Positions 28,411 to 52,039 of a stretch of DNA of 64,000 nt are shown here, piece by piece. Positions within the stretch are counted from its first letter, which is position 1; each line of letters opens with the position of its first letter. Made by a program: the position numbers and the translations under genes. The notes beneath the pieces were generated by a model. The model did not search any database. It was not told where the DNA came from and was given only the letters and a program-made list of their open reading frames with translations. Origin of the DNA: Gracilaria domingensis (Eukaryota; Rhodophyta; Florideophyceae; Gracilariales; Gracilariaceae); assembly GCA_022539475.1 (NCBI GenBank), contig VCMS01000155.1:103210-167209 (forward strand), in the 5' to 3' direction.

Positions 28411-28439
28411 TGAAAACTAAGCTAGTTTTGGGGCTATTT

Positions 28440-32476: not shown

Positions 32477-33102
32477 GGTTAGAACACATGACTTTTCCGT
32501 GTTGTAAACCTTTTAGAGATAGTTAAACATAAAAGTTACTTTATCGAAATGACCTGTTCCTATTACATTACTTATATTGTTCGTCCTTTTGTGGTTCAAA
32601 TATGCCACTTTAAATCCTACATCCCTTATCACTAATACCTGGCTAAGTTTTTGCTAGATGGAAAAGGGTCATTCCACATCATTAAAGTGCACGATACTAG
32701 TAAGGAAACAAGTACAAAATTGTGATATTTCTGAAGAACTAAGCCTTTGCAATACTTGGGGCACCCGTATAAAGTAAGATAAACCTTTTATGGGTTTCAA
32801 CCCCTAATGGAGGTTGTTTTACTCTTCTTGATTTCAAAGCTCATGTTGAAGATATTCATAGTTTTCTTTACCCACTTGAACCCGTACATATAATTTATGA
32901 CTAAATCATCCTTTCTTTTCTGCAAATCGATGCAAAAGCTTCTCGTCCTGGTAACGTTTTAAAACAGTACTACAATACCCGTATATGGTCGTTCGTAGAC
33001 TCTTTTTATACTACGAAACACCTTGTGAACATCAATCACATCCTTCTCATTCGTATACTCACACCCATTTGCAAAACGAACCCTTTCGAAAGCTTTCAAA
33101 AC
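32477..33102. other. AT-rich intergenic stretch
   Basis: No gene recognised. It holds the 3' flank of the Rossmann-protein gene and the 5' flank of the HAD phosphatase gene. Confidence 0.5.
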
Positions 33103-33975
33103 ATGTATAACTCAGAAGTTAGAGCCCAAGAAGTAACTCCTCAGCAGCTGGCTAACGAAATATTCGAAAATGGCTACGCCGTGATGAGTGATATTGACGG
33201 TACTCTGAAAAGAGCTGGGGACAACATTCTTGCCGAAACAGTCAAATGTATGAAGTACATCAATGCACGCGTTGGTTTCGGAATTGCTACTGGGCGAGAT
33301 ATAGAGGATGCCGAGAGTTTCATGGAGCACCTGGGTGGCTACACTTCTGGCATCTCTGGAAACCAAGGCGCACGGGTGAGATTATCCAATGGTACCGAAA
33401 TTGATCAAGACCTTAACGGGAAATGCTACGAAAGATGTGCAGCCGAACTTGAGAGACTTGCATTCTCCTTAAATGAATCGCACGGACTTCACGAAGAGAT
33501 TCAACAAGCACTTGTGAGCACTAGAAAAGACAGTGGACTCCTTAACTTCACTTACAATGGACTGTCGAATTGGAAAACAGAAGTTAACTCCGGTATTTCA
33601 AAAGTGTTGACATTCTTTCCGAACCTGGTTGCGTACCCTCAAGATGAAAACTGTGACATAGGGGACATTCGTTTCACGAAAAATAGTGGGGCGCTAGCCT
33701 TGGTTGAAAACGACCCCCAGTTCGACACACATTTAATCGTTACTTTCGGGAATGCTTCCAATGATGGTCCTCTATATGAAATGACAACCCTGGCAGTTCA
33801 TGTGAATGGAGACGACCCTCCAGCAGCGGTAACATATCTTGTTGATGGGGTGGAGGACGTGCATGAGACCATCAGAAGGGTGGCAGAACTGTACGGGTAC
33901 ACAAAATGCAAGTGTCAATGGTTTAAAACTGCTCTTGGAATTTGTTTCAAGTGCTACGATACCTGTAATACGTAG
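33103..33975 (+). CDS. HAD-superfamily phosphatase (trehalose/sucrose-phosphatase-like)
   Basis: The Met at 33,103 gives 290 residues. The frame opens earlier, but that extension is hydrophobic and unlike the family. Motif I is SDIDGTLKRAGD (nucleophile Asp in D-x-D-G-T). A motif II region appears as GFGIATGRD (the T/S before G-R). Motif IV is FGNASNDGPLYEM (N-D acidic pair). This is the pattern of the HAD IIB-type sugar-phosphate phosphatases. The substrate is not decidable. The gene looks intact and is tail-to-tail with a decayed paralogue. Confidence 0.75.
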   Translation: MYNSEVRAQEVTPQQLANEIFENGYAVMSDIDGTLKRAGDNILAETVKCMKYINARVGFGIATGRDIEDAESFMEHLGGYTSGISGNQGARVRLSNGTEIDQDLNGKCYERCAAELERLAFSLNESHGLHEEIQQALVSTRKDSGLLNFTYNGLSNWKTEVNSGISKVLTFFPNLVAYPQDENCDIGDIRFTKNSGALALVENDPQFDTHLIVTFGNASNDGPLYEMTTLAVHVNGDDPPAAVTYLVDGVEDVHETIRRVAELYGYTKCKCQWFKTALGICFKCYDTCNT

Positions 33976-34071
33976 CTAGGATATGAGATCTCAGCCATAA
34001 AAGGGTAGTATATATCTCAAAACCCTTTTATAATTCATGGTGGTTTTTATCGTGCTTTTTTCCTCGTAGCC

Positions 34072-34865
34072 CTACAACAGAGCCACCAGCATAATTTTCG
34101 AATGTACATCCTCCACGCTTTTGAACAGGTTGTGTACTCCACCCGGGATACAATCTTCTTTGACGTGAACGCCGTACACGCCTACCTCAGGCAAAGGCAC
34201 GTCGCTCAAAGCACTTCCGAACGTCACGACGTCATCCGTATCAATAAATCTCGGTTCATTATCCACAAGATTTGCTCCTCCGCTTCCTTTTGTGTATCGC
34301 TTGTCCACAATTTCGCAACTTTTATCGCCGGGATAGATAACAAACCCATCCATTTTCTGCAACAGGTCCCCAATAGCAGAATCCACTTCTTCTCTCCACT
34401 GCCACAGTTTGTTGTACACGAAATTGGGAAGGCCACTATCACTTCTGGTCTCCACGAACCCCTTCTCATCATCATTCACAATACCATGCTTCCTATTCAA
34501 ATCCCTTGCCAGGAACAGTAGTCCGTCAACAGTGTGGTCAAGGGTGTGATCATTGAATGCACCCTTAATTCCCTCTCGTCAGAGAAACGGAGGAAAGCCC
34601 CATGATTCGCCCAGACACCAAACTTATAGTCTCCGAGTCCTTCCATTTTCCCCTCCACGTCGCCCACATCACCCCCTGTGACAAGTCCGAAACCAACACG
34701 TTCGTCAATGAACTTCATACACTTCACAACTTCTTCTGGAATTGACTCTCCTTCTCTTCTCAACGTTCCATCAACGGAACTTAATGTACCGTAACTATTG
34801 GCATATATGAACTTAGACAAAGTATTGGGTGAAATTTCCGTCAAGTCTCTCTGTTCCTCTGCCAT
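34072..34865 (-). pseudogene. Decayed HAD phosphatase paralogue
   Basis: Two minus-strand frames (34,497-34,865 and 34,072-34,500) align along their length with the intact phosphatase at 33,103-33,975. IPEEVVKCMKFIDERVGFGL matches ILAETVKCMKYINARVGFGI, and VVTFGSALSDVPL matches IVTFGNASNDGPL. The nucleophile region reads SSVDGTLR instead of SDIDGTLK, so the first Asp is lost. The acidic pair in motif IV is also altered, and the frame shifts near 34,500. It is not expected to be catalytic. The two genes form an inverted, tail-to-tail duplication about 100 bp apart. Confidence 0.8.
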
Positions 34866-34883
34866 TTTTCGTGATACAGTCAC

Positions 34884-35201
34884 AATACTGCCACAAGTAC
34901 CCTATAGACAGGAACTGCATAGACTTCTCAGTTTCATACTTCTCTTCAAAGCAACCTTAAGTGCAGTTTCAGAAGTGGTAGGACGCTTCATGTTCAATTG
35001 CGAATTGAATGGTGCCACCAATGATGTTAACGATACCGAGCATGTTGCATGTTGCAATTAGACGCAACTGGACCCAAGACGTATGACATTTGTTCAATTA
35101 CTAGCCTGCCGCACCTTTTCTATATTCATATGTATAGCCTTACAATAGTATACTACTCTTAATACTCGAAAGACACTCATAATTTACTAATCATCTCATT
35201 C
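34884..35201. other. Intergenic stretch; possible left side of the large DNA element
   Basis: AT-leaning, no gene. If the Plavaka-type element has its own terminus on this side it should be here or further left. I could not find an inverted repeat matching the sequence near 50.4-51.5 kb. Confidence 0.35.
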
Positions 35202-36875
35202 TCATCCACTTCGAAGCGCTCGCAACCTCATTATTGGCAAATCGTCATCCCTAATGCTCTCGAGCACTTCGGTTCTACCGTCCTCCGCTTCCACACCAAT
35301 CTCCAGGACCACTTGGTCTTCTTCCATTTCAACCGGCCCATCCTCCTTATCGGACAACAGTTCATCCTCCGCCTCCTTTTCCTCATCACCATTGACAAAC
35401 GTGGGTCGGAAATCCCGTACCCGATGAACAGCATCAGGTAGTGCGTAGCCCTCTGGTACCATGTACATGTCGTATCTAACCAGCAAATGCATAGACTCAG
35501 GCCTATCCACCTTGTCCTTCCCACTTGCTCCAGCATGTGTCACATCACCACGGCCCACGAATACAGAGTACGGTGGGATGATTATCTTCTTCGCTGGATA
35601 CACCTCCGACATCACTCGCAACTGTTGGTTGTTCATCCCCACCAGTTGATGGCTTCCAGCGCTCACCCAGAGAGGAAAGCCCTCTTTCCCAGAGGCCCTT
35701 ACAAAGAATCCGGGGTTACCAGAATTCATTGTTTCCTTCGTAACCAGACCACTGAAGTCGGTGTGCAGCGTCTGGCGCTTGCACTTTCTCGGGGTCCCCA
35801 GAAATCGACCACCAATTTTCGGAGTGTACATCTTCACAGCTTCCGTTTCATTGTCCCATAGTCCTAAAACCGCAGCAATTGTACCCATTCGAACATCAAG
35901 TAAAGCACGCGACCTTACAACCCACCTGAGCTCCTCAATATCCTCCGGCTTCTCCACCGTACCCCAACGTGTCGACATCACTCTCCCCTCAAATGGTCCA
36001 TCGCTCCCGTCTTTCCGTCCTTCATCATCGTTGATGATTTGAAAAAACGACTTCTGTTCCTCCCCTTTCCGTATATCCGGCATCGCTCCATACTCATTCT
36101 CGAAGAAGTGCACCAACTTCCCCGACACATCTCCGAACTCCCGAACTTCTTCTAACTCCTCCCATTTAGGAACACCATTATCCGTCGCAAAGCCGTCAAG
36201 CACGCAATATCCATTCTGCCTTAGCTCAGCTTGCATTCGGGCGAAGAAAATTTGCCCAAATTCGTCATGCTCCTTCGCAGCAACCCACAGCACCTCTTCA
36301 TCATCCATACCTGTCGGCCGACTACGAGGATACTGCATACCAAATGTCTCCGCCCGTAGGCGATGTTCGGCCCTTGCAGCGTGCCAAAACACAAGATGGT
36401 GTACATCTCTGAGATCTGATGTACTTAGCAGCTCCGACCTATGTGCCTTCGGCAAGTGAATGACTCTGAGCCAGGGGTCCTTGCGCTCAATTACGTTCTT
36501 CCCTTTCCATTCCTGCGGTCTCAGCCTGACATACTCGCACCATGATGGGTCTGGTGGGCCATCATATGGGTCTCCTCGAACAAGTCCGTGCTCCTCAGAT
36601 TCCGGAAGAGCTGTAGGTAACTCGTCATTAAATGACCCCCCACCTGTCTCTTGCTGTTCGTCTGTCGCAGCATCTTTCTCGACGGAGACAAACCTTGGAA
36701 CTGTCACAGCAAGAAGCTCTTCGTCATCCACAAATGCAGAACTGCCTGCATTCTCTGCATTCCCTTCCTCTTTCAATGACACGAACTGAACCTTCATCGA
36801 CCTTCCTCTCAGCACATGTTCATTTAGTTGAGACATCAGGGCATCCGGTGTCATGCTGTTCAGAGTAGATCTCAT
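35202..36875 (-). CDS. 2-oxoglutarate/Fe(II)-dependent dioxygenase-like protein
   Basis: A 557-residue frame. The C-terminal half has the double-stranded beta-helix signature: HTDFSGLV (the H-x-D iron ligands, about residue 370), LWVSAGSHQLVGM, then GRGDVTHAGAS (distal His), followed by an Arg (MHLLVRYDMY) in the position that binds 2-oxoglutarate. The N-terminal half is acidic and unrecognised. Enzymes of this fold oxidise methyl groups on nucleic acids or proteins, among many substrates. TET/JBP relatives accompany KDZ transposons in fungi and some algae, but I cannot show this one belongs to that group. Immediately upstream, a TGA separates it in frame from the preceding ORF, so it may be the C-terminal part of a longer ParB-dioxygenase protein. 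Confidence 0.65.
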   Translation of the reverse strand: MRSTLNSMTPDALMSQLNEHVLRGRSMKVQFVSLKEEGNAENAGSSAFVDDEELLAVTVPRFVSVEKDAATDEQQETGGGSFNDELPTALPESEEHGLVRGDPYDGPPDPSWCEYVRLRPQEWKGKNVIERKDPWLRVIHLPKAHRSELLSTSDLRDVHHLVFWHAARAEHRLRAETFGMQYPRSRPTGMDDEEVLWVAAKEHDEFGQIFFARMQAELRQNGYCVLDGFATDNGVPKWEELEEVREFGDVSGKLVHFFENEYGAMPDIRKGEEQKSFFQIINDDEGRKDGSDGPFEGRVMSTRWGTVEKPEDIEELRWVVRSRALLDVRMGTIAAVLGLWDNETEAVKMYTPKIGGRFLGTPRKCKRQTLHTDFSGLVTKETMNSGNPGFFVRASGKEGFPLWVSAGSHQLVGMNNQQLRVMSEVYPAKKIIIPPYSVFVGRGDVTHAGASGKDKVDRPESMHLLVRYDMYMVPEGYALPDAVHRVRDFRPTFVNGDEEKEAEDELLSDKEDGPVEMEEDQVVLEIGVEAEDGRTEVLESIRDDDLPIMRLRALRSG

Positions 36876-36893
36876 CTGTTGTGTGAAAGTCTT

Positions 36894-37226
36894 TCACTGT
36901 TTCGTCCTCGGCGGAGCCCGTTGTTCTTCTTCAGAGCTATCCAGAACTTCTATGGCACCTCGATTTCGGCCGTGCTCAATTTCCCCATAACTCTCCTGCG
37001 CCCGTTCTCGTGCACTTCTTCGCGGCTCCCCTTCTTCACTGGCAGATTTTGCAGCAGCAGCAGCGGGAGTCCTCCTCTTCGTCACGGACTGCTTCACTGG
37101 TGCGGGGGGCGGATTTACCTTGAGCATCGTCCGCAATCGATTCTGAACGGAAGTCGTGGCAGTTCTAATTGAGTTCGTCCTGCTCCGAACACGCGGCAAT
37201 GTGTTGAAGTTCACAACTTGTCCCAA
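36894..37226 (-). pseudogene. Linker region between the ParB-like region and the dioxygenase
   Basis: A 110-residue frame, basic and Ala/Ser-rich (AAAAAKSASEEGEPRRSARE), without a known domain. Its TGA stop (CAG TGA AAG) is in frame with the dioxygenase start a few codons later. A CGA-to-TGA change would explain the break. Its upstream end overlaps the next frame by 16 bases. Confidence 0.45.
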
Positions 37227-37651
37227 AGGAACTGATACGCAGCTGCGTTGTTGTCTGGGTCTTTAACGTCATCTTCATTCGATGGAGCATAAAGAGTGAC
37301 TTCGCGTTTCAGGAACACTTCCATGGACTCTTCCTCGTTCAGTTCATTTCTCACTGCTCGAGAAAGGCGGAACAGAGACACTGCTCTATCATAAAAGAAA
37401 CCTCGAGCCTCCTCAAAGCTTTTCCATTGCTTTGTCTTCGTCGACTTGCCCTTCAATAGAAACATTTGAACAGAATCAAGAATGAAGGAAAAATCCTCGG
37501 CATCCAAAACATATAGCGGAGTATGGGACAGATGTGTGAGACCTATGTCACTCACACTCTCACATATATCCTGGAAATGGGCAAGCATTCCCTCACGAGA
37601 CATGAGTTGCAGGGCGACATTGGCATATCTCAGATACTGACGCTCTTGCAC
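37211..37651 (-). pseudogene. Helical segment of the ParB-associated protein
   Basis: A 146-residue frame, mainly helical (SFILDSVQMFLLKGKSTKTK; FEEARGFFYDRAVSLFRLSR). No family recognised. It directly continues the ParB-like region on the same strand after a short frame change near 37,655, and is best read as part of the same former protein. Confidence 0.45.
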
Positions 37652-37663
37652 AGTCCCAATCAG

Positions 37664-38200
37664 TTAGCTCTCTTTCAACACCTCTGTCACTTCTGCAGGA
37701 TCCACGTCTGCCGTCGTCAGCCCCTCAACATCTTCAATTAGAATGGCGACCACACTAACTGTAGAGTGTATCTTGTCTGCAAACATCATCCTTCGCATGG
37801 TACTCGTCGACTCATTGAGGTACGAAGCAACACATAACAATTCCTTCATCCCAATGGGCCTTCCATCTCTTCGTATCAGCAGATTGCAACGCCAAAACTT
37901 GGCTAATCGCTAACACTTCGGTGCACCAGTCGCAGCCAAATATTGTATACCATTCAGACGATGCAAACCATCTACAATGAAGCACTTCTTCGTTAGGCGT
38001 CCCTTGTCAGTATCCCTCTCTCCCGTAGTAGCATCTTGTAAGGCCACCACTGGAGAACCCATCGACTGCAATATCCCCCGCTCCTTCATACTCTTCACAA
38101 GAGCTTCAACGTGGCGTTTACTTACTCCATGGAGTAAATTGGGAAAAGTGTTCACAAGAGTGATGTCAACAGTAACAACACCATCCGGTAGTGATTGAGG
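37664..38200 (-). pseudogene. ParB/sulfiredoxin-like domain
   Basis: Minus-strand pieces show a ParB N-terminal-type fold. A strand-turn (GVVTVDITLVNTF) is followed by a helix with the spacing of ParB box I (VSKRHVEALVKSMKERGIL). A second strand then carries KCFIVDGLHRLNGIQYLAA, the counterpart of the V-x-D-G-x-H-R motif of the ParB/Srx superfamily. A following helical part (SYLNESTSTMRRMMFADKIH) could be the helix-turn-helix side. ParB proteins bind palindromic parS sites and hydrolyse CTP, or act as nucleases. Four palindromes lie 1.4-2.7 kb away. Interrupted at two or three points. Confidence 0.6.
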
Positions 38201-39117
38201 TTCACCTTTGGAACCTTCTGACGAACTCGTCTGTACGCCTTGCTCCGAGTAGGTGTCCCTTGTGTTCCAGACGGCTCGCCAGAAACACTTGAACGTGCTA
38301 TTCTTGCGGACAGAAGCACAACGTCATCGTCCTGCTGCTCCGCAGTTTGTGGTGGAGTTTGGGGTAGAGATGGACCAGCTCCTTGTGTGGATTGCGCATC
38401 TGCGTCTGGAAGGGGACCTTTTATGATCTCATCTTCTTCTTCTTGCACAACCGTCCCGTGCTGAACCGTCTGTTTCGACGCAGAAGGTCCCCTTGTGTCG
38501 ACGGACTGATTTATCGCACGAGATGCCCTTCTCGACGCAGTGGGCTTCGTAGCGGAGGTAGACTTTGTTTGGCCTGTCCGCTTCGTATCTGGGGATGATC
38601 TCGTCTCCTTAGTCCGCTTCGTAACAGACGACGGACCGGCCCGCGGAGGTGCTACTGATGCGCTACCTCTCGGTGTTAATGAACTTCGAATTGGCTCCGT
38701 GCGGCTTGTGGGCGTCATCACCTCACTCATAGCGCTCATCGTTCGTCGCTTGGACGCCGGAATGCTGGCTGCCACCGGTTCCATCATTTTCTCATCCCAA
38801 GAAGCGGCCGTCCGGAGATCCTGGATGTCTTGTGAAAGATCCAGGCTCTCCGCCCGGTAAGGATAGAACTTCTGACCGCTTCGACTGATGAGAATATTAT
38901 GAACCACCACAAGACCTGAACCCAATTGCTTCCCGTTCAACTCGCGGCGTAGAACACTTCCAATTCCATGCAACAAAGCTTCCCCGACTATCACCTTTCC
39001 TTCATTCTCAATATCCATCTGCAGAGGAACCCGCATTCCACCTTGCAATGATCGAGTGCTCCGCCGAGTGCGAGGAGTCACGCTTTGCATAAGCTTTCGA
39101 ACACGAGTTGGCTTCAT
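38152..39117 (-). CDS. N-terminal region of the ParB-associated protein
   Basis: A 321-residue frame starting at the ATG at 39,117, about 66 bp from the 85-bp promoter repeat. Residues 20-110 look folded (KVIVGEALLHGIGSVLRREL; GLVVVHNILISRSGQKFY). The rest is basic, Thr/Ser/Lys-rich low complexity (SVTKRTKETRSSPDTKRTGQ), perhaps a DNA- or chromatin-binding tail. It runs into the ParB-like region at its C-terminus, where the frame changes at about 38,160-38,200. Confidence 0.55.
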   Translation of the reverse strand: MKPTRVRKLMQSVTPRTRRSTRSLQGGMRVPLQMDIENEGKVIVGEALLHGIGSVLRRELNGKQLGSGLVVVHNILISRSGQKFYPYRAESLDLSQDIQDLRTAASWDEKMMEPVAASIPASKRRTMSAMSEVMTPTSRTEPIRSSLTPRGSASVAPPRAGPSSVTKRTKETRSSPDTKRTGQTKSTSATKPTASRRASRAINQSVDTRGPSASKQTVQHGTVVQEEEDEIIKGPLPDADAQSTQGAGPSLPQTPPQTAEQQDDDVVLLSARIARSSVSGEPSGTQGTPTRSKAYRRVRQKVPKVNLNHYRMVLLLLTSLL

Positions 39118-39183
39118 GTTGAACAGCTATTGCAGTGAAAGGTGTATATCAACAATACGCTCGCTCTGGACGATACAACAACA

Positions 39184-39268
39184 GAGGCGAGCCTTTAAAT
39201 GGCGACTTATGCTGGGCACCCCCGCTTTCGGCAGCTTCTCCCAGCGCACTGCCAGTCTCGTCCGTGTC
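39184..39268 (-). promoter_or_regulatory. 85-bp promoter repeat, left arm
   Basis: Reverse complement of 41,169-41,253 with four mismatches in 85 positions. It includes GTCGCCATTTAAAGGCTCG, with a TATA-like TTTAAA about 80 bp upstream of the minus-strand ATG at 39,117. Confidence 0.85.
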
Positions 39269-39571
39269 CTGTCTGTGGCCGCTCGCACGCTGATTGTACG
39301 CTTTAGAGTCCTGAAGCTCGCGCAATGATGACTCACGCGAGCAACGGTCGCGCTCTCTAATCGTGCTCTTCAAATGCTTTCCATAGTACTCAAGAGTACA
39401 CTCATTCACATTCATGTACAGCCTACTCCCGCTAATACACGTGGACAGCGGCGCCAACGTACCGGCGGTCGGGTGTAGCGAAAACACTGGTGGGGGGGCG
39501 TGTTATGGGAGGTCCCGGGAAGGCGCTAGAATGTGACCAGAACGTGCCCGCGGGCGGGGGGGGAGGGGGTT

Positions 39572-39603
39572 GGTCGTGTTAGGGTAGGTACCCTAACACG
39601 ACC
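39572..39603. repeat. Palindrome 1
   Basis: 15-bp perfect arms (GGTCGTGTTAGGGTA) around a GG loop, inside a longer imperfect inverted repeat with G-rich and C-rich shoulders. Confidence 0.95.
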
Positions 39604-39680
39604 GGACCCCCCCGCCCGCTGGCACGTTTGGGCGATTTTTTGAAAAATGTGTGATTTTATGCCCGCGGGCGAGGGGGTCC

Positions 39681-39712
39681 GGTCGTGTTGGGGTATTTAC
39701 CCCAACACGACC
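39681..39712. repeat. Palindrome 2
   Basis: 15-bp perfect arms (GGTCGTGTTGGGGTA) around a TT loop. It differs from palindrome 1 at one arm position, and the opposite arm has changed to match. Confidence 0.95.
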
Positions 39713-40161
39713 CACCCCCCCTTCGCTCGCGGGCACGTTTTGGGCACATTCTGTCACCCTCCAGAGACCTCCCAAAACACTCCTTCCGGCTATTCCGGCA
39801 CCCACCGCGTCACCTCAATGCACCAACGCGTCTTCTCCATCCATCAAACGCTCCCTAACTCCCACGCGCACCACACCTACTCTCTCTGCGATCACCATCT
39901 TCCCATCCGAGGTGCTACACTTCACTGAATTAGTGACCGAATCTGTACTATTGAGTGGTTCCCATCTGTTCTACATGCTGCAGCAGTATATGCACCAGGC
40001 TGCCCTAATGTGCAACATGGCATTTGACCGGCGAGCGCGCGAGGGAGGTGTTCCACTACAGAATCTCCGGGAGCACAGGAGGCTGCGATAGAGGCTAGGA
40101 ACTGTGACGCTTTGTGTTTGTGGCCTAAAGGTGGTACGACGAGAGGGAGATCACGTACGGA

Positions 40162-40198
40162 AGGGTGTGAAGCGCGTTCACAACGCCCTTCACACCCT
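40162..40198. repeat. Central hairpin of the control region
   Basis: 11-bp arms AGGGTGTGAAG / CTTCACACCCT around a 15-base centre, near the symmetry axis of the region. Confidence 0.8.
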
Positions 40199-40739
40199 GG
40201 TGTCAGCAGCGGTCGGTGTCGTGGGTTCGGAGCGAGAATGTTGTTGCGCGCGGTCGCTGGCGAGCACAGCGGCGGCCCTCCGATGGACTGCATGCTCGTA
40301 ACGAACTTACGGCTCCGGGATGGAATTGCGTCATGTGCAGTCGATGAGTGGCGTAAAGATTAGTTAACTGAAAGTTATAAGTTGTTTCATACCTTACCAC
40401 TAGACTACCAAAGACTGCTATCGATGGCGCTCTTAAGCATTGATGCTCCAGGGGCGGCCGCCGTGCCGTCGGTGGTGCATCCAGTATATCAGCCCCCGTC
40501 GTGGAACACGGCGCAGAATGCATAGAATCCCCCACATCATTGACTCTCGACACCATCCTCTTCTCTAGAGTAGGTGTGGTGCGCGTGGAAATTAGGGAGT
40601 TTCTGGAGGGTCGAGAAGACGGGATGGTGCACTGAGGTGACGCAGTGGGTAAAGGAAGTGCCGGGGGGTATGTTTTGGGAGGTCCCGGGAACGCGCAAGA
40701 ATGTGGCCAAAACGTGCCTGCGGGCAAGGGGGGGGGGTC

Positions 40740-40771
40740 GGTCGTGTTAGGGTAGGTACCCTAACACGACC
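40740..40771. repeat. Palindrome 3
   Basis: Same 15-bp arms as palindrome 1, GG loop, with G-run and C-run shoulders. Confidence 0.95.
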
Positions 40772-40850
40772 GGACCCCCCCCGCACGCGGGCATAAAATC
40801 GCACATTTTTCAAAAAATCACCCAAAACGTGCCCGCGGGCGGGGGTGTCC

Positions 40851-40882
40851 GGTCGTGTTAGGGTACCTACCCTAACACGACC
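40851..40882. repeat. Palindrome 4
   Basis: Same arms as palindromes 1 and 3, with a CC loop, i.e. the opposite orientation. Confidence 0.95.
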
Positions 40883-41168
40883 GAACTCCCCCCCCCCCTC
40901 TGCCCGCGGGCACGTTCTCGCCACATTCTGGCACCCTCTGGAGACTCACAAAACATCCCTCCCAGCACTCCCGGCAGTGATTTCGCTGCACACGCCGTGC
41001 AAATATATCAAACTAGAGAAAACTATCGCTTCATACCCACTTGGTCCGCGACTATTAGCACAAGACGCGACCTTTGTAATAGCTCCGAATCGCGACCTGG
41101 CCGACACGCGACGCTGTCGCACCCGCTCAAAGCGGCACGGACACCGACCTCAGAAGGGAGCGGACACG

Positions 41169-41253
41169 GACACGGACGAGACTAGCAGTGCGCTGGGAGG
41201 AGCTGCCGAAAGCGGGGGTGCCCAGCGTAAGTCGCCATTTAAAGGCTCGTCTC
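41169..41253 (+). promoter_or_regulatory. 85-bp promoter repeat, right arm
   Basis: Inverted partner of 39,184-39,268. Its TTTAAA lies about 30 bp upstream of the ATG at 41,273, a plausible core-promoter distance, so the two divergent genes are probably expressed together. Confidence 0.85.
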
Positions 41254-41272
41254 CGTTCTTTGCACTGAGGCG

Positions 41273-42331
41273 ATGGATTCGACCGACGATGGAGAGGAGA
41301 TACATCCTATCGACATGAGTGCTCCGCCTCCGGCGTTCCATGCATATGTCAAACTTTTCTTGGTTCTTCGCGATGCTTTGGCAAACAGCGATTGAGGCCC
41401 TGATCGGCCACGGGACGTGGGGTTTAGATGGCTAATAGAGTTCTGCGCCGAGAACTATAAGGATATTCCGGAGGCAAGGAAGATGTTTGAGGAGGCCACT
41501 AACTCCAAGAACCTGCAGAACTTGACACTGCAACAGCTGCGAAAGAGTGTTGTGAATAACAAACCTGTGGAACAACGATATCTTGTAACGAAGCTTCTTG
41601 ACAAGAAGGACGGGGATGAGGACCAGAGACTGCGCGATTTTTTTCTTCTCTCTATGGATATGGGTATATACCTACCGGTGCGATGCATGGTTGTTTATTT
41701 CATGACCAGGAGAAAGCAGGTTCTGAAGATGACAGTGTTCATACCACCAACAGCTGCGAACCCATTTGAGGTCATTATATACTTACCATACCTCTGCCAC
41801 ATAATGGGAGAGAACGACAACATCAGAATGATGAAGAAGAAACAACCGAAAAAGGAACGAAAAGTGAACCATGCACCATCTGTGTACATATCCACTTTTA
41901 CGTCGTTCTCCAAAGACAACTGTGATCGACTGGGATTCGCTATCAGTGAGTTCGTATGGGAATGGAGTTGTTTTGCCGCTCATCTTGGATACACGAACGT
42001 TCAGCACATGGTGAAACCATACATTTGCATGAATATGCAGACCTTGAAGTATACAGCGCTAGAGACACGGGAGTCTGGTTATGCCCCGCCAAGCCAGAGT
42101 ACTCGATTCAACACACAGGATGTGCCCCAGAGCAGTACTAGTGGATCGGTGGAGACCTTGAGTGATGAATGCTATACAAACCTCCGAATACTGGCTAAGG
42201 AATTTTTGACAGACCTCGAAACCATATGCACCCACGATAGCCTCCATAGCTTACGGGTTGATCAGATGAGAAACCGGATAGAGTTTTCGGAGATACGGAT
42301 GGATACTGACTCCGGTGAGTTGCCTGCATGA
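41273..42331 (+). pseudogene. N-terminal region of the methyltransferase protein
   Basis: Starts at the ATG at 41,273 (MDSTDDGEEIHPIDMSAPPP). The frame is closed by TGA at 41,394 (GAT TGA GGC) and again by TGA at 42,329 (GCA TGA CTT). It continues unchanged into the methyltransferase frame, so all three segments lie in one reading frame. Residues after the first stop form a helical, unrecognised domain (FRWLIEFCAENYKDIPEARK; LGFAISEFVWEWSCFAAHLG). The decayed homologue at 19,270-20,807 aligns with this part, which shows it belongs to the same gene. Each TGA could come from CGA by one C-to-T change. TGA readthrough is a less likely alternative. Confidence 0.65.
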
Positions 42332-42349
42332 CTTCAGAACTTTTCGGAG

Positions 42350-43711
42350 TTGCTATGGAAACCGATACAGGATATGCGTCAAGCGGCAGGATTCAATGTG
42401 GGCATTCACGCGAAATTCGATATTGAACTGACGAAAAACCCTAAAACTTCCGGTAATGCCGAACCTTCTTCGACCAAGTCTGAACCACCCCTACCTCGTC
42501 GAGAGTATATGCACCTCGTGAGCTCCGATAGCGACGACTTCGAGAAGCCGGTGAATCGTGCGGAGCATGAATCTCGGGTTGCCGGGTACAACATCCAAAA
42601 GACAGGTATTGAGCCGCCCATGAAGGAGATATCCAGTCTCCTTCGAATGAATATGGATAAGGTGTGGAAGGGGATGAGAAAGTCACACTTTGTAGCGTAC
42701 AACTGTGACATGAAGGACCTGAGGCACACACACGAAACATTTGTGAATCAGAGTGAGATTTTATGGGGTGAGGCACAGCTTGTCCTAACAGACCCTCCCT
42801 TTAACACTCGGAGGAAGAGGAACAAACGGAATAGTGCTCACGATGTCTTCAGTGAGGATGACATGATCAGTACGGCATACTTAATAAGTTCCGCGCTTCG
42901 GTCTGGTGGGCACTTCATTATATTCTGTGCCATGGGACAGTTTCATGTTTGGCACAGGATACTCTCGGAAACGGCGAGTAGAAAAGATGACGCTGGAAGC
43001 GAAGGTAAACCAGAACTCATGCCTTCGTTTAAAGTGGATGGGAATCCACTGGTGTTCATCCGGGATCGAAGTAATGTTGGCGGGAATCCACGGAAGTTTG
43101 GGATACAGCCCGTAACGGAGTACGCCGTTCATGGGGTGAAGCGTGGATTGCGACCATCCGAGGAAGCCAGTCTTACTCCATTTGAGGATAACAATTTCAT
43201 TCCTTCTACTTTCCCGGCTAATAGGAATGTAATTGATCGGGTGCCGAAAGCGAGAGCGGGGGAGGGGTTGACAGGGAAGGTAAATGAGCCAGGTAGTTCA
43301 GTACCAAATGCGCAGTACATCAGACTGGAGCAGAAGTCCAGGGAGTTGATGAAAGAGTTGATATGTCGGTTCACAAGACCGGGTGATCTTGTCATGGACA
43401 TGTTCCCGGGAACTCTTTCTACGGGTATGGCGTGCCTATCGCTGACAAAGCATAGGAAGTTCTTGGCGTGCGCGAAGAATAAGCCATGCTTCAGCCATGC
43501 GAAGCACAATATAACAACTCTTATGGCCGAAGTTCTTCGCGGGGGGAAGAATGACATCCTGGTTGAACAGGAGGTGGTGGATGCTGCTTCAACGACTTAT
43601 GAACGGGTTCCACATCGGGACCGAGGTCGGCTTGAATGGGAGACTCCATTTGGATACCCCCAGTACCAAGTGATGCCTGCACATATTACTCAATTCCTAG
43701 GAAGATACTAG
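42350..43711 (+). pseudogene. Beta-class DNA amino-methyltransferase (N6-adenine or N4-cytosine)
   Basis: About 450 residues. AQLVLTDPPFNTRR carries catalytic motif IV (DPPF). SGGHFIIFCAMGQF follows as motif V. The AdoMet-binding motif I comes later, as GDLVMDMFPGTLSTGMAC (counterpart of DPFxGxGTT). The order motif IV before motif I marks the beta class, as in bacterial CcrM/HinfI-type enzymes, not MT-A70 proteins such as METTL3. Motif I is degenerate (M-F-P-G for D-P-F-x-G). The frame is open from the TGA at 42,329 to TAG at 43,711 and has no ATG of its own at the start, so it is the C-terminal part of the 41,273 protein. A decayed homologue lies at 8,750-9,029. It would act on DNA in the nucleus. 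Confidence 0.75.
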
Positions 43712-44424
43712 AAGGACTGGGAGTTTGTCGACAAGTGTGGACAGCATACTGTAGATCTTTGGGACGAGAAGTACCGAGGAGCTCTGAATCTAATGGATAT
43801 GCATATGCTGTTGACTGTTGAAGCCAATCGCTATCGCTTACATGTAGTATCTTCTAAGATTCGACATCCCCGTGTTGGTATGGGGGTGTTCATGAACAAA
43901 AGATATTGGCTGGGGAAACTATCTGTCATTTTTATGGAACTTTGGTATACACGGATCTGACGAACCGGAAGGAAAGACACTTAACGTATGGAAGTGGCTG
44001 TCTCGGAGCAACTCCTGTGCGGTACAAGTTGTTTTCTATGATGGTCACTGTGACTGGTTCGGAGTTTCTGCACCTGAGGAACAGACCAGGACAGGCTCAG
44101 GACAGAGAGGTGAGCGAAGTCTACATTGTCCCGGCGCCTTTTTGTATCTCGGACTACATTAACGACGCCGGATATCATGCTGGGGATCCCGATTTATCGC
44201 AGCTTCCGTCGAACAGGACTCGAAGTGCCATTGTGCAGATGTTGGAAGCAAAGTCCGTGATACAGTTTAAGCCCGATCTTTCTAACTATGCTCTACTTCG
44301 TTGTAGAGCAGTAAGAGATATTGAGAGGGGCGAAGAGTTGTATTTCAACTACGGAGAGCAGTACGCCTGGCATTGGGCTCTGACATTGGAGCAATACATG
44401 AGTGCAGTACCGAATAGAAAGTAA
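43712..44424 (+). pseudogene. SET-domain protein (histone lysine methyltransferase-like)
   Basis: The frame directly downstream of the methyltransferase stop runs to SSKIRHPRVGMGVFMNKRYW. The neighbouring frame (43,906-44,424) continues with AGETICHFYGTLVYTDL. Together they cover the SET start (G-x-G-V-F, then G-E-x-I). Further on are FCISDYINDAGYHAGD (position of the N-H/N-D cofactor motif) and RDIERGEELYFNYGEQYAWH, with the conserved Tyr of F-N-Y-G. No pre-SET or post-SET cysteines are seen. A single-base frame change near 43,900 breaks it. Because only TAG (TAC TAG AAG) separates it from the methyltransferase, the two may once have been one fused protein. Confidence 0.7.
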
Positions 44425-44652
44425 ATATGCTTGTGAATGTTGCAGCTGCCTGCAATACGCGTTGTACATGTACACTGGAGCTCTTAATCTATTTGTAACG
44501 GCGATATTTGCGACCCATTGGGCACCTGAAAGTCCTAAAAAGCAATATCTGCGGAGTCTCCCGGAATATCTGAACCATGCTTCCCCCCCCCCCCCCCCAC
44601 ACCCCCTCTCCCCCCAACAATTTCGTTTCATTACCCCATTTATCTCCACAAC
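44425..44652. other. Short intergenic stretch with a poly-C tract
   Basis: Holds a run of about 17 cytosines (44,583-44,599), followed by C-rich sequence up to the next start codon. This is a likely length-variable microsatellite. Confidence 0.7.
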
Positions 44653-47047
44653 ATGGGTATAACGCCGAGAAAGCGAAATAGTACGCAGCGGAACAAGATT
44701 GGACAGAAGAAGAGAAGAGCATCGGATGATACGAATCAGGGTACAAGCCCCGCACTTCCTAAACGGAAGTCGTCCTCGACGAAGGGGAGAGTCAGTGGAC
44801 GTTCTTCTACAGTACTGTCTCGCCCATCTTGCAGCGGAGTGTCTTCCGGGATTGCGTCAAGAATTCGTGGATCAGCGAACGATGTTGTGCCGTCAACTGC
44901 CGATAATGCAAATCGTGCATCTGTCTCTGCTCCCCAAGAAGATGAGGTAACTTGGCCCAGCCGGTCAGGACAGGAGGCCATGACAACTGGAACTGAAGAG
45001 GTTCGTATGACACCAAAACCTTCACGTCCCCGGCCGATATCGAAGACCGGAGCTACCGGGGCGCGGGTTACGCCACCCAGTGGATCTGGACCACAAGGGA
45101 CAATGACGAGAAGTCGTGTGAACCCTAATATATTAACATCATCACGTCCCTCCCTGTCTTCTAGAACTGGGGTCGCTATGAATCGCATTATGCCTCGCAA
45201 TGGGTCCGGACAAGAGAGAAAGACAATAAGAAATCGAGAGACGACTGATAGGCGAGTTACTCCTCGACCTTTCTCTCTTTCCAGAACGGGGGCCGTTGCA
45301 GCTCGTGCGAGGCCCAATTCGTCTGATATACGATGCCATGGAGGAGGACAGACACGGGAGTTGGAGCTCGGAGCCGTGCCAAGAGTGGACACAGAACGCC
45401 TGCAACCTCTCGTGTCTAAGGGCATGGCAAATGAGAATAGTTCCGATAACGAAATAACACCGAATCCTGCGGCATTACCAGGGCCTGTCGCCGAAGAGGC
45501 TAGGAAAATACCGGAAGATACCCACACTGGTGTGAATTCAACTTCCATGAACAGACGTGATCTTTTAAATGAACTGAATTGCTTGAAAGAAAAGGTTAAG
45601 ACGCTACAAAAGGACTTGATAGTTCGGGGTATTCTAGTGAAGGTCGCCCAAGAGCAGAGTACGGCTTTGAAAAAGAGGCTTTAGGAGAAGGATCTAGTCA
45701 TTGAAGGGCTAAGGGGGGCACTGAAACAGGAGGGAGGTAGGAGTACACGTGCTGGTGAACCTGGGCAGACAGGTCGAAAGAAGCATAAAATTGAGGTGTT
45801 TGACGAGTTTCCAGGGGTTGCTCGAGCAGTGTATCACAACATGCTGACGTGGGCAAGGAGAGAAACAAGTGAGCTATGGCTCGAGGGTGAGTCGCTCACC
45901 CGAAATTGAGGTAACCGTGCCGAGAAGGTGGAAGACGCAACTGAGAGTGGGGAAGGGCTTATTGAGCCGAAGGAAGGTGGTTCATACATGGTTCCTAAAA
46001 ACCCCGTGGAGCTCTTGGGCAGTTTTGGCATGTTCACACCGTCGGTAGAGGGGGGCCAGATGCTTTGCTGAAGAAAATGGTTGAAAGCGAGTTGAAGGAG
46101 TTGAGCTGGGAAGGTATTAGAAAAGCATCTCTTACCGACAGGTGTATACTGGAACTTTGTGCGGATATGTGCCTTAGGCAGAGAATGCGGCAGACCATGA
46201 GTGACTTCGTGGGCGTTCGGAAGAGAAATACGAGGGATAAACTATTTCTGCTCCTGGCGTAGGATCTCATTTGGAGAAGAACAAAGCTGGTAGAAGAGAA
46301 TGCTGACGAACTCACAATGCAGTTGAAGGAAGCACAGGAGAACATACTGCGTCTCGACGAAAATGGTGTACCCAACACTTCATGGTGGAGAAAAGCCCCA
46401 TTTGTTCGTCTAAAGTACTCCAATGCGGACAATGTGGAGGATATGCCGACGGAAGATGAATACTTGTTCTTCCGAAACCGTGTCGGGTACAAGTACTGAA
46501 GGAGTTTATTGGGTATGATGTGGAAGACGATGATACGGGCATCTTTTTAGATGGCACAATACTGTTGCTCGCACGTTTGGACGCTTGGGTGTTGACGGTT
46601 GTGAGCCTTCTAAGTACGGACGTGTCAAGGGGTGGCCAGAGACATAAACTGTTTACAAAGAAATTTGCCCAACTGCTACCTCTGTGTTTAAAGAATGTTC
46701 TGGGGGATGTTAGGCAACATGTCTTGAGGACCAATTCCAGCCAGTTTCATAATTATGGAACGATAACGGAAGCTTGGACTAAGGTTCTTGGTAATGACAT
46801 GAGAGAGGCTGCATTTCGATATCGAATTCCGTCGAACGGAAGACTTTACCTCACTGTGAAAGAACAATTTTTTATTGACAGTATGAGCCGAAGATTGGGG
46901 TCTACTAGCGATTGTTTCGTTGGTGAATGCGAGGAAGGGGATACGGAGTTCAAGGAAATGGACATGAACGATTTCGGAAGTAGCACAGAATCACGAGAAA
47001 AGGCATCACAAGGTGAACATGTAGAGGATGGAGCCCTTAATGTTTAA
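44653..47047 (+). pseudogene. Large repeat-rich coiled-coil protein, function unknown (element ORF)
   Basis: Starts at MGITPRKRNSTQRNKIGQKK (44,653), very basic. Residues about 100-240 hold three or four copies of a roughly 42-residue repeat built around SRTG-A and a G-S-G-Q/P motif. A coiled coil follows (LLNELNCLKEKVKTLQKDL, about 45,560-45,620), then a helical region (ELKELSWEGIRKASLTDRCI) and a C-terminal folded part (LDGTILLLARLDAWVLTVVS; EQFFIDSMSRRLG). About three stops and two frame changes interrupt it. Its stop (47,045-47,047) overlaps that of the convergent transposase. I do not recognise a family. By position it may be an accessory DNA-binding protein of the transposon. Confidence 0.55.
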
Positions 47048-50000
47048 GGCTGTACAAAATCAACGTGTTCAGTTGGTCCTTCATCTGAATCATGATAGAA
47101 TCGATTGATGTAGAATCGGTGTTGAAACCATTGAAGCGGAGGACAAAAAGGTGGAGCAGGATAGTTTGATCGAATAAAATGGACAGTTCCCTGTAGTGCA
47201 GAAGCCGGAACCATCCCGTACCAATGACTTAACTCTACGATAGTCTCCGCTTTGGAATGACGAGGGAACGGAAGAGTGTGGTTATTTTCATCGGTTTTAG
47301 CCCACCGTAAAGATATGCATTTCAATATGTGGTCGATGTTTGTTGCGGGGGGTAAAACCTCGAAATACCGGACGAATGCCACCTCTGGTGCGGTGAGTGC
47401 AGAATCAAGGAGAGATATTCGAATCAGAGCGACCACCTGGGCAAACCAAGTCTCTGAATCTTCTCCGCTTACCAATACAGTGGAAAAATTTGGCTTTCTA
47501 CTGGGACCAAATGCTGGAGAAGCGAAGACTCGTTGGATGATGGGGTATTTGGGTCGTCCAAGCTTAAGTGCCTTAGAAGATGAATCGAAGTGTTCAAGAG
47601 TCGGAACGAAACCGCCTTTCACGAGGGCCAAATTCACCAGAGTTACCCTTGTCTTTTCTGGGAAGTATCTAATACAGTGCTCATCCAGTGTTTGTTTCAC
47701 GAGAATGAGGAAAGGAGGAAGGGCCTGTTCACCAATTTGGTCAAGAATCGACCTTGTGTCCGTACTAGAGAACATCTCTCTAACAGCAGTCCATGTTTTT
47801 GAACTGGGCATACTTGAAACACAATGTTGAAGAGCTCGTAAAGTGAAAGAACGCCCTCTCATTGCAAATCAAGGGAGCTGTGTGGAAGTTCCTGGTAAAC
47901 CTGGATTACGCTGGTAAGGAGTATTACCATTCCATTGCTTTCTAACATGTCCGTGCTCATTGGAGCGAATAGTCTCCTCCACAGCCGTTGCTATTCTTCT
48001 GGACGTCTTTTTGTAGTGTCTCTTTAATAGCAGGTGTGCATGTTCGTATATGTCTGCGTCGTAGTACTTGATACTTCCCAGACGGCGAATATCGTCCACG
48101 AGATGATCGAGAAATTGAAACTTCAGATTCCCAGTCTGGAGGGATGAATATCCGCCAGAGTCTTTACTGCGGAACGCTTGAAGGCTTCAACCTCCAAACT
48201 AGGACACAGGAGAGAGCTTTCAATCCAATACGGGTCACGATTTTCTCTGAATAAAGTCGAAAGCAAGTCCGAGTACTGAGAGAAGATGGTTGTAATTGGG
48301 GCAATGTCCTGTTCCCGACAGCATATGTCAAAGAATTCTCTTATGAAGGGGAAGACCATGTCAAGTGCTTCGCAGTTTTTGGCCTCCAGCATTCCACGGA
48401 GACCGTCTTTCGTGAAGACACCATTCAAAGGTTTGCCTTTCTCCTGCGTGGAGAAATCGATATGTAAACCTTTGGCAGAAGAATCGCGTTCTATGGCAGC
48501 TAGAATTGCGTTTGCATGGTTCAGAAGTTGGGTGCGTATCGTTCGAAATGAACGCGATGCAGATGTTCCTATTGTGGTGCACAGGGTGTCTGACTGCAGT
48601 CTCTCGATTGTGGCCGTTTTTATCAGCTTTGAGATGCCGAGATGCAAGTTGTGTAATGGTTCGAATGAGAACAGACTGTATGGAGACAATCCCGGGATCA
48701 TTCCAAGGCTTACGGAAGTTTCGAGGAACCAAGGAATGAGAGATATGGAATTTGAACGCATCAGAGTATCCGCTTGAGATCTTCTCTCCCCCGCACGACG
48801 TGGACGTCTTTCCGCCTCGTCTTTTTGTGCATGTTGCAAGATAGCTGTGTATGTCTTTCGGATGCTTTTCGTGTGCTTTTGAGAACGTCCGTTGAATGAG
48901 GTGGGAATAGGACTGCATAAAGATGAGCGAGGGGCTTTGCATCTATGACACGGGCTTTCCGTTTTGGTCCCATGAAGAATGGACAGAATGTCCTTAGCCT
49001 CAGGAATATCCGCACAATAACTTGCAAGCAGAGGATGGCACACTCGACTTAGTCTGTCTTCGCCGATGAACTGAAAACCTTTCTGCCTGAGATTTAGAAT
49101 GGGCTCCAGGACTTGACGGAGAGATTCTTGAAGGATTTGCATCCTGGACTTGCGTAGAGACTTGCTAGAAACGAATGGCATTGCTCCTGCTTCAGATGCG
49201 GAAACCTCGATCAGTGTGGTAGGGAAGTATGCCACTACTGTGAGGTAATCAAAGATGCACTTACGGCGTAGCTCGTCGGAGACGTTGAGAAATATGAGTT
49301 GAAGAGGATAGGGGGTAACCAATGTTTGCTTTAGAGTTGTTGAAGACTTATCGGTGTATACCTGCAGAAGACCTACGAAAGATTCACTGTAACCTATTTC
49401 TTGGGAGTACTACACTATTCTACTATCCAAAGAGCCCAGGACCATTTCCTTAAGTTTTGAGGTGGCGTCTCTTGCGAGAGAGCCGGACATGGGGTGAGAT
49501 ATTTTCGTGAAGTGGGTCTGAAATATAGGGTGGAAGAATTTGTTTTCGTTGTTAGCCAACTGGACTTGTTTCACAAGTGTCTGAACGAGGTCTCTCGTGT
49601 AGAGGGTGGCGCTGAACTTACATCCTTCTGGCGAGACAATTCTTCGATTGAAACCGTCTTTTGAAGCATATCGTTCGAAAATGGCGTTCTTCAGTTCTGT
49701 ATAGCGCTTGGAACTTGTTATGGTCTCGTTGAATCGCTTTTGCGAGAATCGCGGGTCCCGAAGTAGCCCAGTTAGCTCTTTTGCTTCACGATGACCAAGG
49801 TTGGAAGCTACTAAAGCCAGACAAACCGTGAGATAATCCATATGCAAATCACCGAGGACCTCCTCAGAAGGCACTGGACGGGAACTGCTTCCGTGTTCTC
49901 GCTCTAATGACGGGGGATCCAGTGAAGGAGAAACACAATGCAAAGTGTCCGGAATGGGAGGGGCGCACGGAGTGGGATCAACGATGTCCTCGGACACCGG

Positions 50001-50222
50001 AGGCTCGGGAAAGCGACAAGGGGCAGTTACCGTTTCGGAAGATGCGGGGGCGGGCACGGAAAGCTTGAGACGCTTGCTTCTTCGAATGAGACGCCTATTG
50101 TGGTCTTCCAGCGAGGCTTTCAGACGAAACGGGCAATGGTTGACATGCTGTTGAAGAGATAACACTCCTCCGCCAGTAACGAACGGGCACCCACGCTTCT
50201 TATGTGTACAGCAGTAGACCAT
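47044..50222 (-). pseudogene. Plavaka-type transposase (KDZ/CMC-related), decayed
   Basis: Start Met at about 50,222 (MVYCCTHKKRGCPF). The N-terminus has a zinc-finger-like CPF...LQQHVNHCPFR, as in this family. A Pro/Ser linker and helical region follow (to 49,410). The catalytic start is VGLLQVYTDKSSTTLKQTLV (about 49,340; Y-x-D-K with the first acidic residue). Then come TPYPLQLIFLNVSDELRRKC, the Cys cluster PCHRCKAPRSSLC, and FEPLHNLHLGISKLI. The C-terminal WYGMVPASALQGTVHF and FYINRFY lie at 47,044-47,862. Total length of about 1,060 codons is normal for the group. At least two breaks occur (near 49,400 and 47,870-48,120). It presumably moved the surrounding element by cut-and-paste. Confidence 0.8.
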
Positions 50223-51520: not shown

Positions 51521-52039
51521 CGATACCGCACTTTGGTACAGGTGCAGTCTGCGGCAGCTGCCGCAGATTGCGCCCACTCCGGCTCCATCATGGGGAAATG
51601 GTACATGTAATATAGCGAAGTAGTGGTTAGCAAAAGCGGTCGATAGAAGAATAGATACGAATAAAACGGTATGATTTCATAATGGGCATCATCTGTACTA
51701 GCAATAGTATTCCATGCGTTGCAGGGTATCATTCCGCGGAAGATATCGTGTAATGTGTACCTTAATGGAAACTGAACCTAGACTTCGCGAAATACCGTTC
51801 AGGTAGCCCTCGACTAAAGAACTAGCACGAGTGGAAAGCCCACCAGTATTTACTGCACAGCGATTCTGGACGACCCAAGCAATTATCTGCAAATTTTGAA
51901 ATAATTGATCTCGATATTTTTCCAAAAAATTTACTGGACGACCCTTGCCACTTTCTGGACGACCCTCGCCAAAAACTAGCATCTGCAAGAGACAGACGAT
52001 GCACCCACTCCAGTAGCCCACACTAACAGAAGCAGCTAC
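51521..52039 (-). other. Stretch with an unrecognised minus-strand frame and a triple short repeat
   Basis: A 107-codon minus-strand frame (51,698-52,021) has no recognised motif. CTGGACGACCC occurs three times on the plus strand (about 51,868, 51,934 and 51,956). This kind of subterminal repetition is known at transposon ends. It lies just before the resumption of copia homology. Confidence 0.4.

Follow-up and report, generated by a model that had tools for sequence, protein, structure and literature searches.

Why should a Plavaka-type transposase in a red alga be accompanied by a DNA methyltransferase, a SET domain, a dioxygenase-like protein and a ParB-like protein, and do all of these belong to one element? 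The question is raised by a stretch of 64,000 nucleotides from contig VCMS01000155.1 of Gracilaria domingensis, referred to throughout as the window. The initial annotation, made from the letters alone, placed four separate accessory genes there beside the transposase. The window in fact holds a complete copy of a DNA transposon, and in intact copies elsewhere in the genome the four domains are found on two fused frames, one joining the methyltransferase to SET and the other joining the ParB-like region to the dioxygenase-like region. Our preferred reading, which is held tentatively and at somewhat less than an even chance, is of a Plavaka transposon core with two divergent fusion genes, of which one (methyltransferase–SET) is predicted to mark the element's own DNA and chromatin and the other (ParB-like/dioxygenase-like) probably binds the central promoter and removes marks there.

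The association of the genes was examined in the assembly of G. domingensis, a florideophyte (77.9 Mb in 680 contigs), where related copies, whole or fragmentary, number over a hundred. Each list holds the best matches of its search, and all copy and pair counts are lower bounds. At least 92 matches were found for the methyltransferase, 77 for the dioxygenase, 98 for Plavaka, 123 for ParB and 150 for SET. Ordered pairs were counted where side, strand and distance agreed with the expected layout, and the counts were compared with shuffled placements. For the methyltransferase, 92 of 93 rows were used, the short second piece of one split match being excluded, and the Plavaka places for the pairs with methyltransferase and with SET were the 98 rows plus 49 of 123 from a second Plavaka list. 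Of the 92 methyltransferase matches listed, 62 have SET about 1.2 kb downstream in the same orientation; a divergent ParB lies upstream of 35, a divergent dioxygenase upstream of 19, and 24 are paired with Plavaka. ParB accompanies the dioxygenase in 29 of 77, and Plavaka is downstream of SET and convergent with it in 45 of 150. The shuffled placements gave means of 0.23–1.37 with a maximum of 4. At least 10 methyltransferase copies, including that of the window, have SET, ParB and dioxygenase, and at least 4 of those have Plavaka as well. The distances between SET and Plavaka cluster at ~4,613 and ~5,073 bases, which is the pattern of copies of one element. Chance adjacency of the genes was considered and is ruled out by genome-wide pair counts far above the shuffled expectation. 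The proposal of one mobile element bearing the whole gene set next to Plavaka is therefore borne out by co-occurrence; the same search did not find what had been named as evidence to the contrary, namely transposase copies that consistently lack these genes or the genes together without a transposase.

The frames lie where they were first placed, between 35,202 and 50,222, though the element itself is longer. Homology to other copies exceeds these limits in both directions: of the 40 places listed, 37 match 33,700–36,000 along its whole length, one of them being the window itself, and matches in the DNA searches reach 51,600 on the right. The element starts with CGTCTGTGTTCTGCA and finishes with TGCAAGAGACAGACG, giving short terminal inverted repeats of CGTCTGT...ACAGACG. 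The right terminus falls at the identical base in loci L069–L072 and L033, where L069 and L070 have the same flank so that L069–L072 represent three distinct sites, and the left terminus falls at the identical base in L076. Because of these common ends, and because a Copia-like element is split around the copy, the bounds of the copy are set at 28,372–51,998. When the flanks are rejoined with one AT they give one frame across the site, bar one stop codon. In other copies the bases after the right end are TA, CG or AT, and a duplication on both sides was observed at the window copy only. Near the right end there are subterminal-type repeats of CTGGACGACCC; CACTA elements have subterminal repeats. 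Membership of the left arm is based on the position of the window copy between both ends, on L049, in which 31,797–31,911 is joined to 33,801, and on L071 and L076. At L073–L075 the left ends were guessed by spacing and the DNA there has no match in the window or at other loci, so the left arm (28.4–33.7 kb) varies or is interrupted elsewhere. Deletion derivatives are found among the copies (L017, L021, L026 and L031), and at L071 one copy contains the right end of another. L033 holds, at 3732–4212, a right-end fragment of ~480 bp nested in another copy, with an apparent 2-bp duplication and a different left end. Close to the left end, 28001–30000 is strongly C-rich and of low complexity, with a GC skew of −0.47.

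The methyltransferase–SET gene carries 3 stops and gaps within the aligned part in the window. In L013, L016, L017 and L027 it is a single frame in which an N-terminal domain is followed by the methyltransferase and then by SET. The N6_N4_Mtase family of Pfam is matched at 2.8e-10 in the window and at 3.9e-15 in the intact copy P0001 (56.8 bits, cut-off 26.7); for SET the corresponding values are 2.3e-5 and 1.8e-7 (32.0 bits, cut-off 22.4). Motif IV precedes motif I, as is the order in the beta class, with DPPF at 521 and FAGTFST at 725 in the intact copy. The set for alignment and selection consisted of the window and 24 of the 29 other loci, L015, L021, L026, L031 and L033 being excluded as rearranged. 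DPPF is kept in 25 of 25 aligned copies and the SET motif GEELYF(N/D)YG in 23 of 25, including the window. The methyltransferase protein of the window is 88–92% identical to most other copies, though it reads FPGT and ACAKN where FAGT is found in 24 of 25 and GCEKN in 23 of 25.

The ratio of nonsynonymous to synonymous change (dN/dS) of the methyltransferase–SET gene is 0.345 over 276 pairs from 24 copies, with 0.43 for the N-terminal domain, 0.31 for the methyltransferase and 0.29 for SET; here and below the aligned loci are best-scoring matches, several of them near-identical, and are not independent samples. Eleven pairs from the two fusion genes were simulated with the same mutation classes, with 300 runs per pair. 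The observed synonymous count was reached in 0/300 runs for L013–L027, 0/300 for L016–L027, 15/300 for L017–L022 and 0/300 for both pairs that involve the window. Since dN/dS is low at 0.345 and the simulations rarely or never reach the observed count, the gene is, judging from its codons, clearly maintained by purifying selection between copies. CpG-to-TpG changes are few, making up 4/60, 5/67, 13/149 and 11/148 of the changes in four of the eleven simulated pairs. The best-matching solved structures include the adenine enzymes DpnA, CcrM and MboIIA, as well as RsrI. Based on these matches and on the DPPF or DPPY motif, the protein is most likely an adenine-N6 methyltransferase; the motif types of amino methyltransferases are contrasted in PMC8885841.

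For the divergent gene, the ParB-like and dioxygenase-like parts lie in the same stop-free frame of 1,308 aa on contigs C81 and C296, and at L064 and L065 1,063 aa of it can be read up to the limits of the loci. The window gene has 3 stops and gaps within the aligned part. With both fusion genes disrupted, the window copy is most likely dead. In an alignment of the window with 25 of the 29 other loci (L040, L056, L059 and L060 were excluded) LHTDFSG and GDVTHAG are identical in all 26 copies, and of the 19 copies extending over the DGLHRLKA motif 18 have it unchanged, the exception being the window. The ParB profile of PHROGs is matched at E=0.0015 by the intact copy and at 0.012 by the window piece. 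This match, the DG.HR motif and the relative P0011 described below point, if weakly, to a probable ParB-like domain. GmrSD_N, which we take to be a ParB/Srx-like relative, is weakly matched by the same part (0.13). The putative dioxygenase is recognised by the order of its motifs. Thus profile searches confirmed the expected Plavaka, N6_N4 methyltransferase and SET domains, while ParB was found weakly and by PHROGs only and the dioxygenase by motif only. On this evidence the dioxygenase-like part cannot be classed as TET/JBP, as no profile matches it and no TET/JBP similarity was found in Pfam or among PDB sequences; the PE-type TET/JBP proteins of fungi are also nearly undetectable by sequence (PMC12730594). 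Because the host is a red alga, the comparison with fungal KDZ transposons and their TET/JBP genes is in any case only an analogy.

In the simulations for this gene the observed count was reached in 1/300 runs for L065–window and in 3/300 for L065–L041, so constraint is apparent in two of six pairs only. A protein search with the intact copy found at least 3 proteins (7,990 candidates scored), two of which are nr proteins of Gracilaria domingensis; a fungal host, which was also considered, is rejected on this ground. These two, P0003 and P0004, belong to the element, and their names, 'mediator subunit 15-like' and 'cell-wall-anchored protein SasA' (LPXTG), look like misleading automatic labels; both are without the dioxygenase core, apparently lost to predicted introns.

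The region between the divergent genes (39.1–41.3 kb) is itself structured. An inverted repeat of 93 bp, whose arms agree at 87 of 93 positions, places one arm upstream of each gene, and between the arms there are four palindromes of 32 bp, compared with 0 expected in shuffles. Where the fourth palindrome is present in other loci its 15-nt arms match in 16 of 22; of the seven loci without the whole palindrome, five are cut by the edge of the locus or contig, L031 has a deletion and L037 an altered arm. The arrangement invites reading as a shared, self-controlled bidirectional promoter with candidate sites for the ParB-like protein. TTAGGG/CCCTAA, the telomere word of vertebrate type, occurs within three of the palindromes (39576–39599, 40744–40767 and 40855–40878).

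Both fusions have relatives elsewhere. P0005, on a 6.8-kb contig in ENA, is 39% identical to the ParB-like/dioxygenase-like protein with both halves kept, including the DGLHRL and H.D motifs. Searching with the whole methyltransferase–SET fusion gave 6 proteins of 27–41% identity, whereas the single methyltransferase open reading frame (ORF) alone gave no relatives. All six are N6_N4_Mtase by Pfam and all read DPPY; SET is matched by Pfam above the cut-off in P0006 and P0008 and weakly, below it, in P0009 and P0011. P0011 (1,186 aa, on an 18.8-kb ENA contig) has in one chain a ParB-like start with DGAHRT (PHROGs 0.027), a methyltransferase and a weak SET, and therefore ties ParB to the methyltransferase enzyme a second time. 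Outside searches with methyltransferase–SET gave 3 viral and 2 bacterial loci; the SET part was not seen in the frames of L077, L078 and L080, which are methyltransferases (L078 by Pfam). For the ParB-like/dioxygenase-like protein, 60 stretches of viral contigs, the only ones covered, fitted a pattern and 0 were confirmed.

Self-targeted epigenetic control would seem the most likely function for such a set of genes. The ParB-like part would bind the palindromes between the divergent genes, and the dioxygenase-like part, held there, would oxidise DNA methyl groups, either 5-methylcytosine (5mC) set by the host or N6-methyladenine (6mA), so keeping the shared promoter open. The methyltransferase and SET would give copies of the element a DNA mark together with one on lysine, and marked copies might be distinguished from host chromatin or bound differently to it. 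In plants, the En/Spm protein TnpA derepresses a methylated promoter. The Gracilaria element may carry an enzymatic version of this self-derepression, which the Vandal anti-silencing proteins also achieve (cited in PMC12730594). A more specific form of the proposal is a self-addressed epigenetic switch, in which a ParB-guided dioxygenase would erase marks at parS-like palindromes of its own bidirectional promoter, opposed by one polypeptide that writes DNA methyl marks (probably 6mA) and lysine marks, with chromatin state and identity set independently of the host; in this detail we consider it doubtful.

Several observations weigh against self-targeted control. The ParB-like part has no match in Pfam, NCBIfam or PDB profiles, and neither has the dioxygenase-like part, which shows the HxD...H...R motif order only. 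Profile comparison of the ParB-like part with phage ParB-methyltransferases gave a probability of 0.2–0.9%, its relative P0005 has no ParB match in PHROGs, and AlphaFold models were of low confidence (mean predicted local distance difference test scores of 31.8 and 29.8) and gave no support for the folds. Four of the six simulated pairs of this gene look neutral (73, 103, 147 and 154 of 300). On the side of the writer, 22 of 25 aligned copies have YINDAG in place of the canonical SET motif NH.C, P0007 and P0010 have no SET match in Pfam, and the N4-cytosine enzyme PvuII is also weakly matched by the methyltransferase (E 0.32). The palindromes could instead be promoter or terminator structures. 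Finally, 15 of the 19 listed Plavaka–ParB pairs less than 6 kb apart are compact, lying 2.6–3.7 kb from one another on one strand, which is too short for a whole methyltransferase–SET gene between them; the methyltransferase–SET part is therefore probably not essential in cis.

In the compact pairs Plavaka stays together with the ParB-like N-terminal part as if the two formed a core, which would suit a different role, with both fusion proteins being transposition machinery: the ParB-like part would bind DNA of the element as a TnpA-like partner of Plavaka and methylation of donor or newly replicated copies would time excision. There is a precedent for transposition timed by methylation in bacterial Tn10/IS10, where the timing is provided by host Dam methylation. 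The palindromes, however, are central, ~11.2–12.5 kb from the left end and away from the inverted repeats, and the motif repeated at the right end, CTGGACGACCC, differs from them in sequence, so that we find this role rather unlikely. It is unlikely too, and slightly more so, that the accessory genes act in trans on host silencing or on rival elements, through global oxidation of 5mC or methylation of histones that is not specific to the element. For many copies the lists do not show the full set of genes, and compact copies exist, as would suit such an action; PMC12730594 also speculates that the AG-type TET/JBP of the fungal Kyakuja elements oxidises 5mC at no specific target. Targeting is favoured, however, by the fusion of the ParB-like to the dioxygenase-like part and by the four palindromes close to the start of that gene. 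That the genes are passenger cargo caught by a giant transposon, with no role for it, is improbable: although the left arm bears metabolic-type genes (ribulose-phosphate epimerase, HAD hydrolase) and the reading frames of the window copy are lost, the same layout recurs in dozens of copies, methyltransferase–SET is under purifying selection between them and related fusions of 27–41% identity occur elsewhere.

The features of the window copy and its flanks are collected in the table. The transposase is matched by the Plavaka domain PF18759 of Pfam at 8.9e-15 (55.2 bits, cut-off 26.3). Further Plavaka copies in the genome, L001–L008 among them, show ~66% DNA identity to this transposase over ~400 bp and have frames of up to 1,110 aa. 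The epimerase ORF of the left arm scores 201.6 bits with NF004076, above the cut-off of 165, and 210.5 bits with TIGR01163, just below the cut-off of 212.6. At 16 of 30 dioxygenase loci the second HAD-like gene is open over 314–319 aa. This sugar-phosphate-type cargo, an epimerase and two HAD-like hydrolases, is arranged in opposite directions, and the epimerase is open though the transposase of the window is broken. Other mobile elements in the window are an element with reverse transcriptase and RNase H at 2673–4232 (−) and a hAT fragment at 24281–25090 (−).

Table. Coordinates of the transposon copy, its genes and its surroundings, numbered from the first letter of the window.
Feature	Position	Strand	Remarks
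Copia-like element, left half (flank)	27160–28369	+	gag and protease recognised by eye
Target site duplication AT, left	28370–28371		flanks the element
Complete DNA transposon copy	28372–51998		23,627 bp; both ends confirmed by other copies; sits in the Copia-like element
Left terminal inverted repeat CGTCTGTGTTCTGCAAA	28372–28390	+	same end in L076 (contig C102)
Ribulose-phosphate 3-epimerase ORF (cargo)	30412–31224	-	Pfam 5.9e-61
Cargo ORF without known family	31283–32476	+	partly present in another copy (L049)
HAD-IIB hydrolase ORF (cargo)	32905–33975	+	Pfam Hydrolase_3 5.8e-11; HAD-SF-IIB 6.6e-9, below its cut-off
Second HAD-like gene, broken in the window	34072–34901	-	resembles the ORF at 32905–33975 by eye; window piece without Pfam match
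Probable ParB-like/dioxygenase-like fusion gene, disrupted in the window	35202–39117	-	1,308-aa open frame in at least 2 other copies
Dioxygenase-like motifs LHTDFSG ... GDVTHAG ... LVRYHMY	35463–35768	-	last motif is LVRYDMY in the window
ParB-like N-terminal region, VDGLHRL motif	37920–38200	-	PHROGs ParB, weak
Promoter-like 93-bp repeat, arm 1	39177–39269	-	contains TTTAAA; 94% complementary to 41168–41260
32-bp palindrome 1 GGTCGTGTTAGGGTANNTACCCTAACACGACC	39572–39603		
32-bp palindrome 2	39681–39712		symmetric change in both arms
32-bp palindrome 3	40740–40771		
32-bp palindrome 4	40851–40882		present in 22/29 other loci
Promoter-like 93-bp repeat, arm 2	41168–41260	+	just upstream of the methyltransferase–SET start codon
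DNA methyltransferase–SET fusion gene, disrupted in the window	41273–44397	+	1,055-codon open frame in other copies
N6_N4 methyltransferase domain	42776–43483	+	DPPF, then FPGT in the window (FAGT in other copies)
SET domain	43897–44355	+	Pfam
Third gene, in pieces	44653–47047	+	low-complexity, coiled-coil-like by eye; no family match
Plavaka transposase gene, three ORF pieces in the window	47044–50222	-	open frame of ~1,100 aa in many of the other copies
Right terminal inverted repeat TGCAAGAGACAGACG	51980–51998	-	same end in L069–L072
Target site duplication AT, right	51999–52000		single AT holds the interrupted Copia-like frame in register
Copia-like element, right half (flank)	52001–55200 (far end approximate)	+	integrase and reverse transcriptase; RVT_2 2e-7, rve 5.1e-5, both below Pfam cut-offs

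With a methyltransferase–SET polypeptide that has intact copies and shows signs of purifying selection, it can be cleanly tested whether the chromatin marks of mobile elements are written by the elements themselves, and whether 6mA or N4-methylcytosine (4mC) serves as a real mark in a eukaryote. For the ParB-like protein, the four palindromes are a defined candidate target. Assembled genomes exist for several Gracilaria species (PMC10388701), which makes a comparison between species and long-read mapping of methylation feasible.

One comparable system is that of the phage ParB-methyltransferases (L078 and L082–L084; phrog_67), to which the methyltransferase profile matches with a probability of 98.3% and an E value of 1.6e-14. 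In L078 and L082 ParB_N and N6_N4_Mtase lie in a single chain; these proteins have no SET or dioxygenase match and are prokaryotic, and the phage arrangement is likely to be the ancestral form. Among transposons, the elements of Bostrychia are reportedly giant Plavaka elements of one lineage. For the red alga Bostrychia moritziana, PMC12477816 cites giant EnSpm elements with multiple accessory genes (Petroll et al. 2025, doi 10.1016/j.cub.2025.04.044), which share size, accessory genes and a red-algal host with the present element and differ in host species. The same source describes a 1,104-aa protein on a brown-algal Sola transposon in which a ParB-like and an N6/N4 methyltransferase region are joined, with similar proteins on green- and red-algal transposons. 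The idea there is the same, that a transposon-borne ParB-like and methyltransferase pair would bind and modify the element's own DNA, but the Sola element has the two in one protein while in the Gracilaria Plavaka the methyltransferase is fused to SET and the ParB-like region to the dioxygenase-like region. The initial view that a set combining all four parts had not been described therefore holds for the fusions, as far as the open-access literature searched is concerned, and does not hold for a ParB-methyltransferase or for giant red-algal EnSpm elements, which are in print (PMC12477816).

TET/JBP genes are carried by many fungal transposons including PlavakaB (Kojima 2025, PMC12730594), which is thus also a Plavaka-type element with a dioxygenase gene, though the dioxygenase-like part of the Gracilaria element has no detectable TET/JBP similarity. 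The 2-bp AT duplication agrees with the duplications given in PMC12730594 for PlavakaA (2 bp) and PlavakaB (2–3 bp). The termini given there are TGT..ACA for PlavakaA and CATCA..TGATG for PlavakaB, compared with CGTCTGT..ACAGACG here, and the Gracilaria element therefore falls in neither described Plavaka subgroup. The text of that article uses 'ParB' 0 times, and its sections 4, 18 and 26 hold no transposon-borne DNA methyltransferase. It cites SET genes on HarbingerS and MuDR of Phytophthora, a precedent for transposon-borne SET, with fusion to a DNA methyltransferase unmentioned in its text. N4CMT of bdelloid rotifers, as presented in PMC8885841, likewise combines a bacterial-type amino methyltransferase with a chromatin domain in a eukaryote and links DNA and histone marks; it is, however, a host gene with a chromodomain that helps to silence transposons, while the Gracilaria enzyme is transposon-borne and has SET as its partner. 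The 'Plavaka giant repeats' of Amoebidium differ in that many of the genes there encode tyrosine recombinases (PMC11244446). No methyltransferase–SET or ParB-dioxygenase fusion in a transposon, and no such palindrome array, was found in the open-access literature searched. Each ingredient of the element thus has a precedent, and what appears new, as far as that literature goes, lies in the methyltransferase–SET and ParB-dioxygenase fusions together with the palindrome array between them.

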